The position numbers and the translations under genes are program-made. From NCBI GenBank assembly GCA_025061735.1, contig JANXAU010000040.1:1-64000 (forward strand): DNA of 64,000 nt, in the 5' to 3' direction. The notes below the pieces were generated by a model, which made no database searches, had not been told where the DNA came from, and was given only the letters and a program-made list of their open reading frames with translations. The stretch is from Candidatus Bipolaricaulota bacterium. GTDB lineage: Bacteria; Bipolaricaulota; Bipolaricaulia; RBG-16-55-9; DRXL01. Below, piece by piece: positions 3,747 through 11,880 of the stretch (positions within the stretch are counted from its first letter, which is position 1; each line of letters begins with the position of its first letter).

Positions 3747-4721
3747 ATGCGACTCTTGGCTTTGTGTGCGCTGCTGCTCTTGTTAAGCGTTGTGCCTTCT
3801 GGGGCTCAGTCTCCCTTGATGGTGGTCTTAGACTGGCTGCCCAACCCCAATCACGTCCCGCTTTATGTTGCGCAAGAGATGGGCTTTTTCAGGGCCGAGG
3901 GGCTTTCCGTCTCTCTGCAAGCGCCTACGGCGTTTGACCCCAGCGATCCGGCCAAGCTCGCCGCGGCAGGCCGCGCCGATCTCGCCATCACAACGCCGAT
4001 CAATCTCATCGTCATCCGCTCCCAGAACGTGCCCTTAACAGCTATCGGCTCGCTCATTCAAAAGCCCCTCGGAGGGCTGTTGGCTCTGAAAGAGCGCGGC
4101 ATTCGCACTTTGAAAGACTTCAAAGGGCGCAAGATCGGCTACTCGTTGGAGCCGGAAGAGCCGGTCTTGTGGACAGCGATGCTCGAAACGGCGGGCCTCA
4201 AGCCCGGAGATTATCAGCTCATCAACGTGGGCTTCGACACGCTCCCGGCGCTGCTCACCGGACAAGTCGATGCCATCGGCGCGTTTCGCAACGTCGAGAA
4301 GATCTTAATCGAAGCTCAAGAGCGCAAAGAGACGGTCTTCTTCGCGCTGGAGGAGCATGGCATCCCCGATCATCCTCAGCTCGTCTTCGTTGCTAATGAC
4401 ACAGTAGCGCAGCAGAAATCTGAGTTTCTAAGAAGTTTCTTGCGCGCGGTCGCCCGCGCTGCTGCTCTAACGCTTCAGGACCCCAACCGCGCGTTTGCGC
4501 TCTTTCTCAGAGCCAATCCCGATCTTCAACGCGACGCCGATCTCCACAGAAAATTTTTTGACGCGACGCTAGCGCTCTTCGCCGGCGCGCCCTGTCATAA
4601 TCAATTAGATAGATGGACCAAGCTCCAGACTTTTCTCTTTGAGCGTAAGCTCATCGCGCGTCCGAGCGAGCTTGCGCGGCTCGTCACTGTCAATCTCTTG
4701 CCCTCGGAGTGTGGCCGATGA
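3747..4721 (+). CDS. ABC transporter substrate-binding protein, NMT1/THI5-like (ThiY-like)
   Basis: Signal peptide; [27 protein letters not shown] typical of THI5/ThiY family. Confidence 0.82.
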
Positions 4722-5515
4722 TCAAAGTCGGATTCTATCAGTTCTGCCCCGTCTTTGGCGATAAGCGCGCCAATCTGCACAAGATCGTCGAAGCACTCGA
4801 GAGAGCCAACGCTGATCTTCTTGTGCTCCCAGAGTTGTGCACGACCGGGTATCTCTTCACATCGCAAGACGAAGTGAACGAACTCTCCGAACCCATACCC
4901 GGCCCGACGACGCGCTTCTTCGAGAATCTCACGCAACGCAAAAACCTCTGGCTCGTGCTGGGGATGGCCGAACGCGATGAGATCTCAAAGAAATGCTACA
5001 ACTCGGCCGTGTTGATCGGCCCCGACGGCTACAGAGCGACGTATCGCAAAGCGCATCTCTTCTTTGAAGAGAAGCTCTATTTTGTCCCCGGCGACACGCC
5101 GTTTCGGGTCTACGATCTGGGGGCTGCTAGAATGGGGATGCTCGTCTGCTTTGATCACTTCTTCCCCGAAGCGACGCGGGCATTGGCGCTCCAGGGCGCA
5201 CAGATTATCTGTCATCCGTCGAACTTGGTCTTGCCGGGGAAGGGGCAGCAGATCACGCGCGTGCGCGCGATGGAGAACCGAATCTTTTGGATCTTAGCGA
5301 ATCGCTACGGGGTCGAAGAGCGGGGGGGTAAAAAGCTTTCGTTCACGGGAGCAAGCCAGATCGTCGCGCCCAACGGGGAGCTACTGGCGCAGGCTCCGTC
5401 GGATAGCGAGTCGTTGCAGATTGTCGAGATCAGCCCTGCAGAAGCTAACGATAAGAGAGTAACAGCGCTGAACGATCTCTTCGCGGATCGCAGGCCGGAG
5501 ATGTATAATCTCTAA
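4709..5515 (+). CDS. Carbon-nitrogen hydrolase (nitrilase superfamily)
   Basis: Glu-Lys-Cys triad contexts: VLPELCTTGY, YRKAHLFFEE, MLVCFDHFFPE. Confidence 0.88.
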   Translation: MWPMIKVGFYQFCPVFGDKRANLHKIVEALERANADLLVLPELCTTGYLFTSQDEVNELSEPIPGPTTRFFENLTQRKNLWLVLGMAERDEISKKCYNSAVLIGPDGYRATYRKAHLFFEEKLYFVPGDTPFRVYDLGAARMGMLVCFDHFFPEATRALALQGAQIICHPSNLVLPGKGQQITRVRAMENRIFWILANRYGVEERGGKKLSFTGASQIVAPNGELLAQAPSDSESLQIVEISPAEANDKRVTALNDLFADRRPEMYNL

Positions 5516-5559
5516 AGTTTGATTTGCTCAAAGCTCTCTTGTAAACTATATTTGCGCTT

Positions 5560-7059
5560 ATGGCTACCACGCGAGTTCGTTTTCACACGGCGTTTGAGCA
5601 AAAGATCTATAGCTTCTTAGAGAAATTCGCTCAAGCAGACCAGATCGCGCTCTCCGGCGGCGCTGACTTCTTTCTCTTCGGACACCAGATCGACGCCGCG
5701 TTTGAGTACCAAAACTATCGCGTCGTGATCGAGTGCAAAGAGAAAGACGCCCCCGTAATCTCGCTGTTAGAGCCGATCAACAAGCTCTCATCGGTCATCG
5801 CCGAAGCGCGACGAGCAGAACCGCACAAGACGTACTTGGGCGTCATCGTCGTCAATTTCGATTGGGCAGAGATCAAGCCCGAAGACGTCCAAAAAGCCAA
5901 CTCCCAAGGGCTGAAGATCTGGACCGCCGAGCGGGTGCGCTTCTACGATAAGCTCATAGACGCGCTCAACCCCGAATTGGCGCTGCTCTCGCTCTTCAAA
6001 GACGAGTTCGGTATCACCCGTGATACGGGCAGAGTGATCTCCGTGCCCGCCATCAAGACGACGCGCTTCGGCAAAGATTTGTTGACGTTCGAGCTAGAAG
6101 CCTCTAAGCTCATGCCCTTAGCGTATGTCTTTCGCCTCGCCGATCCTCACACCGAAGCGTATCAAAGAATGATAGATAAAGATCGTCTCATGGAGATCGC
6201 CGCCGAGCTTTCGAAAGAAAAGCTCGAAGTCAACTTCCCCAACAATATTATTGTCAGTTTTGAAGAGGGCGTGCGCTGGGAGCCCACAGACGGCAACGTC
6301 GGCATCTTGCAGATCCCCGAACGCTACGGCATCGCGTGGGTGATAGACGGTCAGCACAGGCTCTACAGTTTCTGCAAGCTACAGAACAAAGAGATCGCCG
6401 AGAACTTCAAGCTCATCGTCACCGCCTTTCAGAATCTCACCAAAGCTGAGCAAGCAACTGTCTTCCGCACTGTTAACAACAAACAGAAGAAGATCAACGC
6501 CAACCTAGTAGATTTTTTGCTGAGCAAAGAGGTCGCTACCGACGACCCGCGCTCGATTGCCGCTCGCGTGATCATTCGCTTTCATGAAGAAAAATTCTTC
6601 GACTATGAGATAGACTGCGGGTTCAACGGCGGATTGCTGAAGCTCTCGAGCTTGTGTAGCGGGTTGGTGCGTCACGGGTTGATCGGGCGCTCCAAACTGT
6701 TGCAAAAAACCCCTAAAGACGAGTCTACGCCTTATCACGTCCTCAAGCAATATCTCCTAGCCGTGAAAGAGACCTTCCCCACGAATTGGAAGAAAGAGAA
6801 TTCGTTCGTGCAGAGCAACGCTGGGCTGAATATCTTCTTCGCGCTGCTCAAGAAGATCATTCGCCATATGGGTATTCCCAAAGAGCGCCTGGACGAGCTG
6901 CGCCAAAGAGACTTTGAGAAGTACCTAGAGCCGCTCAAGCTCACCAAATTCACCGACGAGCTGAAGAAGTTCGCCGCTACGGAGTCGGGTCGCGCGGCGA
7001 TTGTCAAGATGCTCTCCGGGAAGATCGAGCAGAAGTTCAAGGGCTTCGCGGAGCTGTGA
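5560..7059 (+). CDS. DGQHR-domain protein (DndB-like) with N-terminal PD-(D/E)XK nuclease-like domain
   Basis: IPERYGIAWVIDGQHRLYSF and FRTVNNKQKKINANLVDFLL are DGQHR-family signatures; N-terminus has GHQIDAAFEYQNYRVVIECKEK resembling D...E-x-K of restriction-like nucleases. Confidence 0.8.
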   Translation: MATTRVRFHTAFEQKIYSFLEKFAQADQIALSGGADFFLFGHQIDAAFEYQNYRVVIECKEKDAPVISLLEPINKLSSVIAEARRAEPHKTYLGVIVVNFDWAEIKPEDVQKANSQGLKIWTAERVRFYDKLIDALNPELALLSLFKDEFGITRDTGRVISVPAIKTTRFGKDLLTFELEASKLMPLAYVFRLADPHTEAYQRMIDKDRLMEIAAELSKEKLEVNFPNNIIVSFEEGVRWEPTDGNVGILQIPERYGIAWVIDGQHRLYSFCKLQNKEIAENFKLIVTAFQNLTKAEQATVFRTVNNKQKKINANLVDFLLSKEVATDDPRSIAARVIIRFHEEKFFDYEIDCGFNGGLLKLSSLCSGLVRHGLIGRSKLLQKTPKDESTPYHVLKQYLLAVKETFPTNWKKENSFVQSNAGLNIFFALLKKIIRHMGIPKERLDELRQRDFEKYLEPLKLTKFTDELKKFAATESGRAAIVKMLSGKIEQKFKGFAEL

Positions 7060-7830
7060 ATGGACGAGCGTGCATTACTACAGCAAGCATCAGAACTCTT
7101 TAGGCTTCAAGGGCAGCTCATCGAGCTCCCCGCTCGCGGGCGCGCCGTCTTCGTCGGCGACACGCACGGCGATTGGCAAGCTTCCCAAATCGTCGTCGAG
7201 CGCTATTTAGATTCTGAAACGGTGCTCGTCTTCTTGGGCGACTACGTAGATCGCGGCCCACACTCTTTAGAGAATATTCTCTTTCTGCTGGAGCAGAAGC
7301 TGAAGCACCCCAAAAATATTTTCTTATTGCAGGGGAATCACGAGGGCTGGAAGTATGCAGAATTCTCTCCGGCAGACTTTTGGCAGAGCCTCTCTCAAGA
7401 GCGTCGTGAGCGCTTTGCCGAAACGCTCGCGCAGCTCCCCCTAGCCGCTTCGACTCCCAACGGCGTGCTGGCCACCCACGCCGCCCTGCCCGATGTGCAG
7501 AGCCTCGCTGAGATCCGGCAGATCGCCCCGATGTCAGACCACTGGCGCGCGCTCACGTGGGGGGATTGGCAAGAAGTACCGGGGTACTATCTGGGCGACC
7601 GGGGCAGCCGCCCTCAGTACGGCGAGGCCTACTTTCGCGAGATCATGAGAAGATTCGAGAAAAGAGTGCTGATTCGCGGACACCAGCCCCACGCACCGCG
7701 CTATCTCTTTGGCGCTCGGTGCGTGACGATCTTCACGTCGTCGGCCTATCCCCTGCCGCGCACCGTCGCCCTCTTAAACCTGACAGACCCCATCCATAAA
7801 GCCGACCAACTCTCCTTAGAGATGGTCTGA
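7060..7830 (+). CDS. PPP-type metallophosphoesterase (Ser/Thr protein phosphatase-like)
   Basis: GDTHGDW, GDYVDRGPHS and GNHEGW motifs; ATG immediately follows stop of upstream DGQHR gene. Confidence 0.88.
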   Translation: MDERALLQQASELFRLQGQLIELPARGRAVFVGDTHGDWQASQIVVERYLDSETVLVFLGDYVDRGPHSLENILFLLEQKLKHPKNIFLLQGNHEGWKYAEFSPADFWQSLSQERRERFAETLAQLPLAASTPNGVLATHAALPDVQSLAEIRQIAPMSDHWRALTWGDWQEVPGYYLGDRGSRPQYGEAYFREIMRRFEKRVLIRGHQPHAPRYLFGARCVTIFTSSAYPLPRTVALLNLTDPIHKADQLSLEMV

Positions 7831-7864: not shown

Positions 7865-7968
7865 TTCTCTGCTCGGGGAGCTCGGGGAACCGGGCTGAGA
7901 GGGCCTCTAGTCTGAGGCCGACCCATCGAACCTGATCCGGGTAATACCGGCGAAGGGAGATCTTCAGT
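7865..7968 (+). promoter_or_regulatory. TPP riboswitch (THI element)
   Basis: Conserved core GGGCTGAGAG...GACCCATCGAACCTGATCCGGGTAATACCGGCGAAGGGAG directly upstream of a thiamine-binding protein gene. Outer boundaries approximate. Confidence 0.95.
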
Positions 7969-8010
7969 CCTGCCCGAGATCCCTCAACGACATACAAGGA
8001 GGGATCTGTC

Positions 8011-9048
8011 ATGCTGCGTCGAGCAACGCTCTGGGTGTTGCTCATCGGATGGGTGCTGGCCTTGAGCGGTTCTTTCTCCTTTGCTCAGGCCGGCGAAGGC
8101 TCCAAGCTCGTCGTCTACGTCTATCAGAGCTTTGTAGACTACGGACCGGCCAAGTTTGTCAAGACCGAGTTTGAGAAGCGCTTTTCAGGGGTCGAGGTCG
8201 AGTTTGTGGCCACCGGGCCGAGCCGCGCGATGCTCGCCCGCCTCGTCACCGAATTCCAAGCGGGCCGCACCCCCGCCGATCTCTTCTTGGGCGAGATCAA
8301 CGACGTCCCCAAAGCCAAAAAGTTCGGGCTGTTTGTGCCCCTCAGCGCAGCCGACGTCCCTAACTTAAGAGACGTCCCCCAAGAGCTGCTCTTCGACCCC
8401 GAAAAGACGCTCATCCCCTACGAGCACGGCTACATCACGCTCGTCTACGACAGCGAGAAGCTCAAGCCCGAAGAGCTGCCCAAGACGTTCGCCGATCTCT
8501 TAAAGCCTCAATATCAAAAGAAGCTGATCGTCCAAGATGCGCGCACCTCCAGCGTGGGGTATGCGTTTCTGCTCTGGACGGTCTATAACTACGGCAGCCT
8601 AGGCTACCTTGATTATTGGCGACAGCTCTTGCCAAATATCTTGACGATCCAGCCGGGGTGGAGCGCGGCTTATCGGCTCTTCCGCCAAGGCGAAGCCCCG
8701 ATGGTCGTGAGCTTCTCCACCGACGCCTACTTCAACGCGCGCTACAAGCCCTTGCTGCTCAACGGCCAGGGCTACCGGACGATCTACGGCGCGGGGATCG
8801 TGCGCACGACGGACAACCCTCGGCTCTCGCGGGAGTTTCTGAACTTCTTGCTCTCGCCAGAAGTCCAAGAAAAACTCCCCGACACCGAAGTGATGTTCCC
8901 TGCCAACAGCAAAGCAAGGGTGCCCGAAAAGTTCGCGCAGCTTGCGGTCGTACCCCCCAATCCGGTGATGCTCCCCCTTGAGATGGTCGCCGAGCAGGGG
9001 GATCGCTGGTTGGAGGAGTGGGCCAAGCTGATCGTCACAGGACGGTAA
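8011..9048 (+). CDS. thiB: Thiamine ABC transporter substrate-binding protein
   Basis: TbpA/ThiB-like (KLVVYVYQSFVDYGPAKFVKTEFEKRF), signal peptide, downstream of TPP riboswitch. Confidence 0.88.
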   Translation: MLRRATLWVLLIGWVLALSGSFSFAQAGEGSKLVVYVYQSFVDYGPAKFVKTEFEKRFSGVEVEFVATGPSRAMLARLVTEFQAGRTPADLFLGEINDVPKAKKFGLFVPLSAADVPNLRDVPQELLFDPEKTLIPYEHGYITLVYDSEKLKPEELPKTFADLLKPQYQKKLIVQDARTSSVGYAFLLWTVYNYGSLGYLDYWRQLLPNILTIQPGWSAAYRLFRQGEAPMVVSFSTDAYFNARYKPLLLNGQGYRTIYGAGIVRTTDNPRLSREFLNFLLSPEVQEKLPDTEVMFPANSKARVPEKFAQLAVVPPNPVMLPLEMVAEQGDRWLEEWAKLIVTGR

Positions 9049-9051
9049 CGT

Positions 9052-10806
9052 GTGAACTCTGCGACTCCACACCCTCCCCCCGTCCCTCTCCCTAGCCGGG
9101 AGAGGGTGGCCGCAGGCCGAGGGAGGGTGTGGGGTCTCGTCGCCATCGCGCTGCTCTTTCTGATTCTCTTCTTCTATTGGCCCGTGGCGCGCCTGCTGGC
9201 CGAGGGCCTCACCCACAATGGAAAATTCTCGCTCGACTTCATCGTCCAGATTCTCACCGACGCCTACTTTCAGCACGTCATTGGCTTTACGTTCTACCAG
9301 GCCCTCTGGAGCACGCTGGCTTCGATTGCTCTGGGATTGCCGTTGGCGTACATTCTGACGCATTATGACTTCCCCGGCAAGCGCTGGCTGCGGGCTTTCA
9401 CAATCGTGCCCTTCGTCTTGCCCTCGATCACCGTGGCTTTGGGGTTCGCGCTGCTCGTGGGGCGTCGGGGGTATCTCAATCAGCTCTTGATGGGGCTGTT
9501 GGGGCTGAACGAGCCGCCCCTAGCGCTGATGTACTCTCTAGAGGGGATTATCTTAGCGCACGCGTTCTACAACGCGCCGATCATCGTGAGGACGGTGCAC
9601 GCGGCGTGGGAGAAGCTCGACCCGCGCTACGAAGAGAGCGCGCGCGTGCTGGGCGCAGGGCGCCTGGCTGTGTTCAAAGATATTACGCTGCCGATGATCT
9701 TCCCCAGCCTGCTCTCCGGGGCTGCATTAGTATTTATCTTCTGTTTTTTAAGTTTTCCCATTGTGCTCACCATCGGCGGCGGGCGCTTCTCGACCATCGA
9801 AGTCGAGATCTATACGCGAGTGATCACGCTGCTCGATCCCCAACTGCTCAATTACAAACTCGGCGCGGCCCTGGCTCTCCTCGGGCTGGTGATCTCCTTG
9901 GGAATGACCTATCTCTATCTGCGTCTTCAAGGGAGTTTGACGTACTCTACCGAGCTGCTGCGCCCGCGCCCGACGGAGCCACTCTTTGCGAAAGAGAGCC
10001 TTTGGAGACCCAGTCGCTGGCTGATCGGAGGGTATCTGTTCTTGTGCGCGCTGATCTTCTTGGGGCCGATGCTCGCTGTTCTCTTCGATTCGTTCTGGGA
10101 GGAGACGGCTACGGGGGGAGGGTGGACGCTGCGGTGGTATTCGTATATCTTCGCGCCCGATTACGATGCGCTCCTGGGAGACGCGCCGCTGCGGGCCGTG
10201 CTCAACAGCCTCTGGGTAGGGCTGACGGCGGCGCTGTTGGCCCTGGTTCTCGGGCTGATCTTCGCTTATGGAATTGCGCGCGCGCGGTGGCGCGGGCGTC
10301 GCGCGCTCGACACACTGCTGATGGCCCCGCTGGCTACGTCTTCGGTGATCTTGGCGTTTGCGTTCCTGCGAGCGTTTAGCACGCCCCCGTTGATGTTGGT
10401 CGGCTCTACTCTTGTGGTCGTCTTGGTGCACGCGATGATCGTCTTTCCGTTTGTGGTGCGGGTATTGGTGCCGTTGATGGAGGGCTTTGATCAACGTCTG
10501 AGCGAAGCGGCGCGCACGTTGGGAGCGTCGGCGTTCAGGGCGCTGCGCGAGATCGAGCTGCCGTTGCTGGCGCCCGGCGTCCTCGCGGGGGTCGTCTTCG
10601 CGTTCGCCCTCAGCCTTGGGGAGATGAGCGCGACGCTGATGCTCGCCCCGCCGGGGTTTGCGACGATGCCCATCTCCGTCTATCGGTTGGTCAGCCAGCA
10701 GACGTGGGGAGCGCCCAGCGCCATGAGCGTGCTTATGATTTTCTCGTCTTTTTTGGCGTTTTGGTTGCTGGAGCGCGCGGGCGAACGCACTCTGAAGGGG
10801 TTCTGA
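9052..10806 (+). CDS. thiP: Thiamine ABC transporter permease (two fused permease domains); true start may be internal, e.g. GTG at 9127
   Basis: Two EAA-loop permease domains (EESARVLGAGRLAVFKDITLPMIFPSLLSG and EAARTLGASAFRALREIELPLLAPGVLAG). First ~25 codons lie in a palindromic repeat. Confidence 0.85.
   Translation: MNSATPHPPPVPLPSRERVAAGRGRVWGLVAIALLFLILFFYWPVARLLAEGLTHNGKFSLDFIVQILTDAYFQHVIGFTFYQALWSTLASIALGLPLAYILTHYDFPGKRWLRAFTIVPFVLPSITVALGFALLVGRRGYLNQLLMGLLGLNEPPLALMYSLEGIILAHAFYNAPIIVRTVHAAWEKLDPRYEESARVLGAGRLAVFKDITLPMIFPSLLSGAALVFIFCFLSFPIVLTIGGGRFSTIEVEIYTRVITLLDPQLLNYKLGAALALLGLVISLGMTYLYLRLQGSLTYSTELLRPRPTEPLFAKESLWRPSRWLIGGYLFLCALIFLGPMLAVLFDSFWEETATGGGWTLRWYSYIFAPDYDALLGDAPLRAVLNSLWVGLTAALLALVLGLIFAYGIARARWRGRRALDTLLMAPLATSSVILAFAFLRAFSTPPLMLVGSTLVVVLVHAMIVFPFVVRVLVPLMEGFDQRLSEAARTLGASAFRALREIELPLLAPGVLAGVVFAFALSLGEMSATLMLAPPGFATMPISVYRLVSQQTWGAPSAMSVLMIFSSFLAFWLLERAGERTLKGF
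9067..9132. repeat. Nested palindromic repeat (REP/MITE-like)
   Basis: Perfect 12-bp outer arms CCACACCCTCCC (9067-9078)/GGGAGGGTGTGG (9121-9132) and 9-bp inner hairpin CCCTCTCCC (9084-9092)/GGGAGAGGG (9098-9106). Confidence 0.9.
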
Positions 10807-11880
10807 ATGAACTACCTAGAGCTGCGAGAGATCGTCAAGCGATTTGGCGCTGTCTTAGCTTTGGATCGGGTCTCGCTGGAGATCGCCAAGGGCGAGCTGG
10901 TGGCGTTGGTGGGTCCCAGCGGCTGCGGCAAGACGACGCTCTTGAGATTGATCGCGGGCTTAGAGACCCCCGACGCTGGGGATATTCTCTTGGCGGGGCA
11001 GAGCGTGTTGGGAGTTCCCCCAGAGCAGCGCCGCGTGGGGCTGGTCTTTCAGAACTACGCGCTCTTCCCACATATGACGGTTTGGCAGAACGTCGCTTAT
11101 GGGCTGAAGTTTAGAAGGGGAGAGGGACTAGGGGTGAGTGCCTTGCTCGAACTCGTCGGGCTGACCGGGCTTGAAGATCGCAAGCCCGCCGAGCTCTCTG
11201 CGGGGCAGCAGCAGAGGGTCGCGCTAGCGCGCGCCCTCGCCCCCAACCCCCACATTCTCTTGCTCGACGAGCCGCTCAGCGCCCTCGACGCCCAACTGCG
11301 CCAACGCTTGAGAACTGAAATTAAGAGAATCCAACGAACTCTTAAGATCACGACGATCTACGTGACCCACGACCAAGAAGAAGCCCTCGCCATCGCCGAC
11401 CGCGTCGCCGTGATGCAGACGGCTCGCCTTGAGCACGTGGGCACCCCGTGGGAAGTCTATCAGCATCCCAAAACGGAGTTCGTCGCGCGGTTCATCGGGC
11501 GCGGCAATCTCGTCACCGCGCGCGTCGTTTCTGAAGATCCTCAGCGCCTCTTGCTCAAAATCGGGAATGCTTCGGTCTGGGCCAAGCGCACAACGCCGCT
11601 GGCGCATACAACCGTAAGAGCGCTCATCCGACCGGAGCGCATTCGCTTCGGTTCTTCTACAGAAAACAAGCTCTGCGGGCGCATCGTGGGGCGGGAGTTC
11701 ACCGGCGACCGCCTCTGGGTGCACCTGCAGACCGAATCCCATCTCTGGGTCGTCCAAGCCGATCTCTCCCACAATCCTCAAGAGGGCACCGAGGTAGAGT
11801 TCGGCTTCAACAGCGAGGACGTCTACGTTCTCCCCGACTCAGCCACCGCCGAGCCAGCTCTAGATCAGCCGACGTCGTGA
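10807..11880 (+). CDS. thiQ: ABC transporter ATP-binding protein of the thiamine transporter, with C-terminal TOBE-like extension
   Basis: Walker A GPSGCGKTT, signature LSAGQQQRVALARAL, Walker B ILLLDEPLSALD; position in operon with thiB/thiP. Confidence 0.85.
   Translation: MNYLELREIVKRFGAVLALDRVSLEIAKGELVALVGPSGCGKTTLLRLIAGLETPDAGDILLAGQSVLGVPPEQRRVGLVFQNYALFPHMTVWQNVAYGLKFRRGEGLGVSALLELVGLTGLEDRKPAELSAGQQQRVALARALAPNPHILLLDEPLSALDAQLRQRLRTEIKRIQRTLKITTIYVTHDQEEALAIADRVAVMQTARLEHVGTPWEVYQHPKTEFVARFIGRGNLVTARVVSEDPQRLLLKIGNASVWAKRTTPLAHTTVRALIRPERIRFGSSTENKLCGRIVGREFTGDRLWVHLQTESHLWVVQADLSHNPQEGTEVEFGFNSEDVYVLPDSATAEPALDQPTS

Follow-up and report, generated by a model that had tools for sequence, protein, structure and literature searches.

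A predicted PD-(D/E)XK nuclease-DGQHR fusion protein in a small variable gene slot of Bipolaricaulota

The window analysed here is the whole 64,000-nucleotide stretch of Candidatus Bipolaricaulota DNA, and the features at the locus of interest are listed in Table 1. Two genes are central, referred to as A and B, of which B opens on the base directly after the stop codon of A (TGA ATG); both lie exactly where an earlier note on this DNA, made from the sequence alone, had placed them.

Table 1. Features at the nit-A-B locus (positions in the window)
Feature	Position	Strand	Basis
nit, carbon-nitrogen hydrolase, left border of the variable slot	4709..5515	+	PF00795, 4e-51
Promoter-like element of gene A (TTGATT, 17-nt spacer, TAAACT)	5519..5547	+	Between-genome comparison
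Gene A, PD-(D/E)XK-DGQHR fusion protein, 499 aa	5560..7059	+	Profiles, motifs, structure model
Predicted PD-(D/E)XK nuclease core of A, residues 11-136 (E13/D45/E58/K60)	5590..5967	+	AlphaFold2, Foldseek
DGQHR domain of A, residues 163-415, ParB/sulfiredoxin-like	6046..6804	+	TIGR03187, motifs, Foldseek
Gene B, PPP-type metallophosphatase, 256 aa	7060..7830	+	PF00149, motifs, PDB sequence search

The DGQHR/DndB signature that had been read in protein A is confirmed by profile searches, as both TIGR03187 (residues 164-415, 124.6 bits, E 5.9e-36; curated cut-off 58.85 bits) and the DndB profile PF14072 (38.2 bits, cut-off 29.1) match above their cut-offs. The QR (202-203), DGQHR (263-267) and FxxxN (302-306) sequences, which have been named as the motifs of DGQHR domains (PMC4619093), show little or no variation across 24 aligned sequences. 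Foldseek gives weak matches of this middle part to ParB-N (5k5d) and PadC (6ryk), in agreement with the published placement of the GmrS domain, which is related to DGQHR, in the ParB/sulfiredoxin fold (PMC4619093). The nearest matches of A among titled genome records are all from Bipolaricaulota (Acetothermia).

At the sequence level, residues 1-158 of A are not matched by any family of Pfam, NCBIfam or PADLOC. AlphaFold2 modelled most of this N-terminal region with pLDDT above 90 in the context of the whole protein, and residues 1-155 alone, with 23 sequences, with a pLDDT of 93.1 and a pTM of 0.88. The modelled core has the order alpha-beta-beta-beta-alpha-beta (helix 11-25, strands 30-33, 46-50 and 53-60, helix 70-86, strand 91-98), and places the D and the (D/E)XK elements, D45 and E58-C-K60, on adjacent strands. 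The resulting signature, D45-x12-E58-C-K60 with an additional E13 in helix 1, is intact in all six copies of A from the window's family. In the alignment of 24 sequences D45 is fully conserved, and E58 and E13 are each found in 23, whereas K60 is kept in ten, including all five window-family copies present there, and is replaced by T in 12. The top Foldseek matches in the PDB include Cdn1 (1.7e-5), Avs4 (4.9e-4), AF1548 (5.3e-4), MspJI (1.3e-3), Card1 (6.5e-3) and the R2 endonuclease, with archaeal Holliday-junction resolvases lower down; the TM-scores are at most 0.5, which supports assignment to the superfamily but not a close relationship. The N-terminal 136 residues or so of A are thus confidently predicted to form a PD-(D/E)XK nuclease. 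This bears out the nuclease core proposed in the earlier note, which had named its absence from a structure prediction as refutation; the prediction gave a PD-(D/E)XK model of pLDDT 93 with all four residues in place.

The identification of B as a PPP-type phosphatase also holds, with the metal- and phosphate-binding motifs GDTHGD (33-38), GDYVDRG (60-66) and GNHE (92-95) and a Metallophos match (PF00149) with an E-value of 3.6e-21. The nearest solved structures in a PDB sequence search are eukaryotic PP1-type phosphatases (E 8.8e-23). B resembles the EukaryoticPPP-like bacterial phosphatases in being closest to PP1 and in carrying the DRG of the PP1 Arg221 loop; Bipolaricaulota are unmentioned in the main text of a 2021 survey of that group (PMC8249667).

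Most of what is known of DGQHR proteins concerns accessory roles in DNA-modification systems, and their biochemistry is little understood. With the described families, i.e. DGQHR proteins (TIGR03187), DndB (PF14072), DGQHR_dnd_1 (TIGR04172) and DpdB (NF041060), A shares the DGQHR core with its QR, DGQHR and FxxxN motifs, but it has an additional N-terminal nuclease. It scores far below the cut-offs of the more specific models, with 101.5 bits against the equivalog cut-off of 450 for DGQHR_dnd_1, and 68.6 bits against 300 for DpdB of 7-deazaguanine DNA modification. A link to phosphorothioation (Dnd) was rejected, since dndC has no match in the whole assembly (93% complete); there are no dnd genes next to A either, and their absence, remarked on earlier for the window, thus extends to dndC of the entire assembly. 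GmrSD (DUF262 plus DUF1524) is an NTP-dependent type IV enzyme whose GmrS resembles the DGQHR domain type (PMC4619093), and the logic that we propose for A is the same, a nuclease joined to an NTPase/sensor domain of the ParB/Srx type. The parts are different, however: the sensor of A is DGQHR and not DUF262 (PF03235 16.9 bits, cut-off 33.2), and its nuclease is an N-terminal PD-(D/E)XK domain, whereas that of GmrSD is a C-terminal HNH domain, and A has no DUF1524 match. The effector nucleases Mrr, Cdn1, Card1, MspJI and Avs4 have a cutting domain of the same PD-(D/E)XK fold as A, but with other sensor domains, such as CARF in Cdn1 and Card1. Among the DGQHR papers returned by literature searches, no title, abstract or searched passage describes a nuclease-DGQHR fusion, and searches on the radical-SAM and DUF433/DUF5615 contexts returned nothing.

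A was found in six of 100 genomes of the phylum, all from the window's family, and is missing from three non-monophyletic genomes of this family. The nmt-nit pair is common to eight genomes of the family. In G050 nit is directly followed by B within a 62-kb contig, and in G053 the end of nit and B adjoin directly on one contig, A being absent from both. G054 shares synteny with G050 on either flank and with G053 on the right-hand one, and has a DUF5647 gene and A in exactly the nit-B gap. Ahead of A are DUF433 and DUF5615-like genes in G055 and G049, and two MutS-domain genes and one DUF5615 gene in G052. G051 has a MazE-type antitoxin gene in the same place; A and B both went undetected in this assembly, which is 72% complete. 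As varied genes or no gene at all can be found between nit and B, this gap is a small variable slot of which B forms the right border. The window does not form a defence island. The two MutS-domain-V proteins of G052 (L016, 5379-8491) are 521 and 516 residues long and are encoded in tandem between nit and A.

The 29-nt promoter-like element scores only 8/12 against the sigma-70 consensus and was therefore missed by a standard promoter scan, but was revealed by comparison between genomes. It occurs exactly once, without mismatches and always just 5' of A, in each of G000 (the window's own assembly), G055, G056, G049 and G052, despite differing upstream genes. It has no match in G050 and G053, which lack A; G051 has a copy with three mismatches downstream of nit, and G054, with DUF5647 upstream of A, does not have it. 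In G000 and G056 the start codon of A lies 12 nt past the -10 element (window 5548-5559), which makes the transcript nearly leaderless, while G055, G049 and G052 (L014, L015 and L016) have about 25 extra bases before the start, with a GAGGTG ribosome-binding site.

The dN/dS ratio of A is about 0.04-0.06 and that of B 0.09-0.18, albeit that these ratios are rough, as dS is near saturation for distant pairs. At similar dS, dN is about 0.05-0.07 for A versus 0.12-0.15 for B, and the A protein changes more slowly than the products of both neighbours. Judged by these rates, A is under strong purifying selection and hence a maintained, working gene. Recent transfer of A is argued against by the similar dS of A, B and nit between genomes and by the A tree, which is without clear conflict with the trees of its neighbours (at modest support). 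Together with the scattered position of the A-less genomes, this fits an old presence followed by several losses, the number of which is not firm, better than it fits a newly inserted gene. The repeats around A are weak and chance-like, without a recognisable target-site duplication.

A genome scan with A yielded 22 loci, four from Bipolaricaulota and 18 distant ones with at most 29% identity. Viral contigs scanned with A alone and with B alone gave no match, nor did the N-terminal domain of A as sole query retrieve a plasmid relative. The distant relatives are longer (about 750-860 residues) and have the same order of PD-(D/E)XK followed by DGQHR, with about 25% identity over both domains. 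Unlike A, they have a longer N-terminal arm, a C-terminal part with a weak, below-cut-off HEPN_Swt1 match in two of three tested cases, and multi-gene contexts. Most of them adjoin genes for a radical-SAM protein and an HSP90-like ATPase, often accompanied by a small further DGQHR gene and a PIN-like one, and many of these radical-SAM-linked relatives carry T in place of K60. The recurrent set (L017 7683-17422, L018 4014-14402, L030, L037-L039, L040-L045), on plasmids as well as chromosomes, consists of the long nuclease-DGQHR gene, often the small DGQHR gene, radical SAM, one or two HSP90-like ATPases and often a PIN_8 protein; PADLOC reports no complete system for it. A radical-SAM partner of this kind was not found in the four A-bearing genomes, in a search run without a positive control.

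At four other loci the relatives adjoin D12-class adenine methylases (L023 4747-8899, with one on each side; L024 5755-8912; L034 6647-9974; L110 4001-7124). All four keep K60, some have a HEPN-like end, and three are on IMG/VR viral contigs. Another K60-keeping relative sits between genes for a Schlafen-type helicase and a putative nuclease. A D12 methylase beside a long nuclease-DGQHR protein looks like a restriction-modification arrangement that is as yet undescribed, and these neighbours, as the strongest hint, support a restriction-type role for the wider family. No D12 methylase was found in G000 (93% complete), and no N6/N4 methylase in G000, G054 and G056, so that these searches lend no support to classical restriction-modification in the case of A. 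In an Acinetobacter phage (L022, 4120-6029) a DGQHR gene lies directly behind an N6/N4 DNA methylase gene (PF01555 1.7e-54).

The A fusion is a conserved compact variant of this poorly described group. We consider the chance slightly better than even that A is an orphan DNA nuclease of restriction type which senses modification or structure, and we infer DNA cleavage, NTP use, modification sensing and a role in defence. A would then be a single-chain enzyme, probably NTP-regulated, in which the DGQHR domain serves as the sensor, binding DNA and probably also a nucleotide, and the PD-(D/E)XK domain does the cutting. Since the searches for a D12 or N6/N4 methylase partner were negative, the likeliest mode would be a type IV-like cleavage of foreign DNA that depends on modification or structure. 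This reading draws on the confident nuclease fold with its E/D/E/K residues, on the intactness of every DGQHR motif, and on the resemblance of the DGQHR domain type to GmrS of the NTP-dependent GmrSD (PMC4619093). The patchy presence of A, the assortment of DUF433/DUF5615, MazE-type antitoxin, DUF5647 and MutS-like genes that also enter the slot, the D12 and Schlafen neighbours of K60-keeping relatives and the strong purifying selection on A point in the same direction. However, slower change than in both neighbours would be unusual for an arms-race effector, the window is no defence island, and the methylase-paired relatives, about 25% identical, have N- and C-terminal parts that A does not.

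The main rival is a housekeeping or regulatory role, in which A would be a resident protein that takes part in transactions or regulation of the DNA of its host and is kept for this and not for defence, either DndB-like and DNA-binding or a repair nuclease of the Mrr/Hjc type. We regard this as rather unlikely, albeit clearly to be reckoned with, since it is favoured by the slow evolution of A, i.e. the very low dN/dS and the slower change than in the flanking genes. It also agrees with the regulation of transcription by DndB itself (PMC4507180) and with the weak Holliday-junction resolvase matches of the N-terminal domain. A resident role is less easily reconciled with the absence of A from three non-monophyletic relatives and with the methylase-paired and viral relatives; moreover, the DndB and DpdB models span only the DGQHR part of A and leave the nuclease domain outside. 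Improbable is a methylation-sensitive restriction enzyme with its methylase encoded at another genomic site or within the 7% that the assembly lacks, for which the D12 neighbours at L023, L024, L034 and L110 could be cited, but against which stand the negative searches of G000 (D12) and of G000, G054 and G056 (N6/N4), the two families searched.

If A is indeed a restriction-type nuclease, it may, more tentatively, belong to an undescribed class in which a DGQHR sensor drives an N-terminal PD-(D/E)XK domain, with D12 methylases as the neighbours of viral and proviral members, radical-SAM and HSP90-like ATPase genes as those of members on plasmids and chromosomes, and the Bipolaricaulota protein as a minimal orphan. 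The lone nuclease-DGQHR protein and its methylase-linked relatives would then give the DGQHR domain a testable job, that of sensor of a restriction nuclease.

The earlier note had further proposed that A and B form a module in which the phosphatase partners the nuclease; in such a functional pair B would control or serve A. In each of the four complete loci the stop codon of A abuts or overlaps the start codon of B, and in G056 the pair is kept together although both outer flanks differ, so that A and B are probably co-transcribed; transcription from the promoter of A would probably continue into B. B is present, however, in 71 of the 100 phylum genomes, usually as a single copy, and follows nit without A in G050 and G053. 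In family f5 it is preceded just as tightly by an MFS-like gene, and a PPP gene is absent from the DNA around all 20 examined loci of distant A relatives (L023, L024, L029-L046). A functional pair is accordingly very doubtful: the survey of homologues finds no conserved co-occurrence beyond close relatives, the outcome that the note itself had taken as telling against the module. B is an ordinary phylum-wide gene, a neighbour of A rather than a proven partner, and the adjacency follows from its fixed position. What survives of the proposed stand-alone defence module is the fusion with its intact catalytic residues, the accessory nature of A and the methylase- or defence-like neighbourhoods of its distant relatives; the phosphatase falls outside the mechanism, and its removal from the picture keeps a false two-gene system off the record. 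To the right of B, a TPP riboswitch (window 7865-7975) precedes an ordinary operon for a substrate-binding protein, a permease and an ATPase (8011-11880), presumably a thiamine-related ABC transporter.
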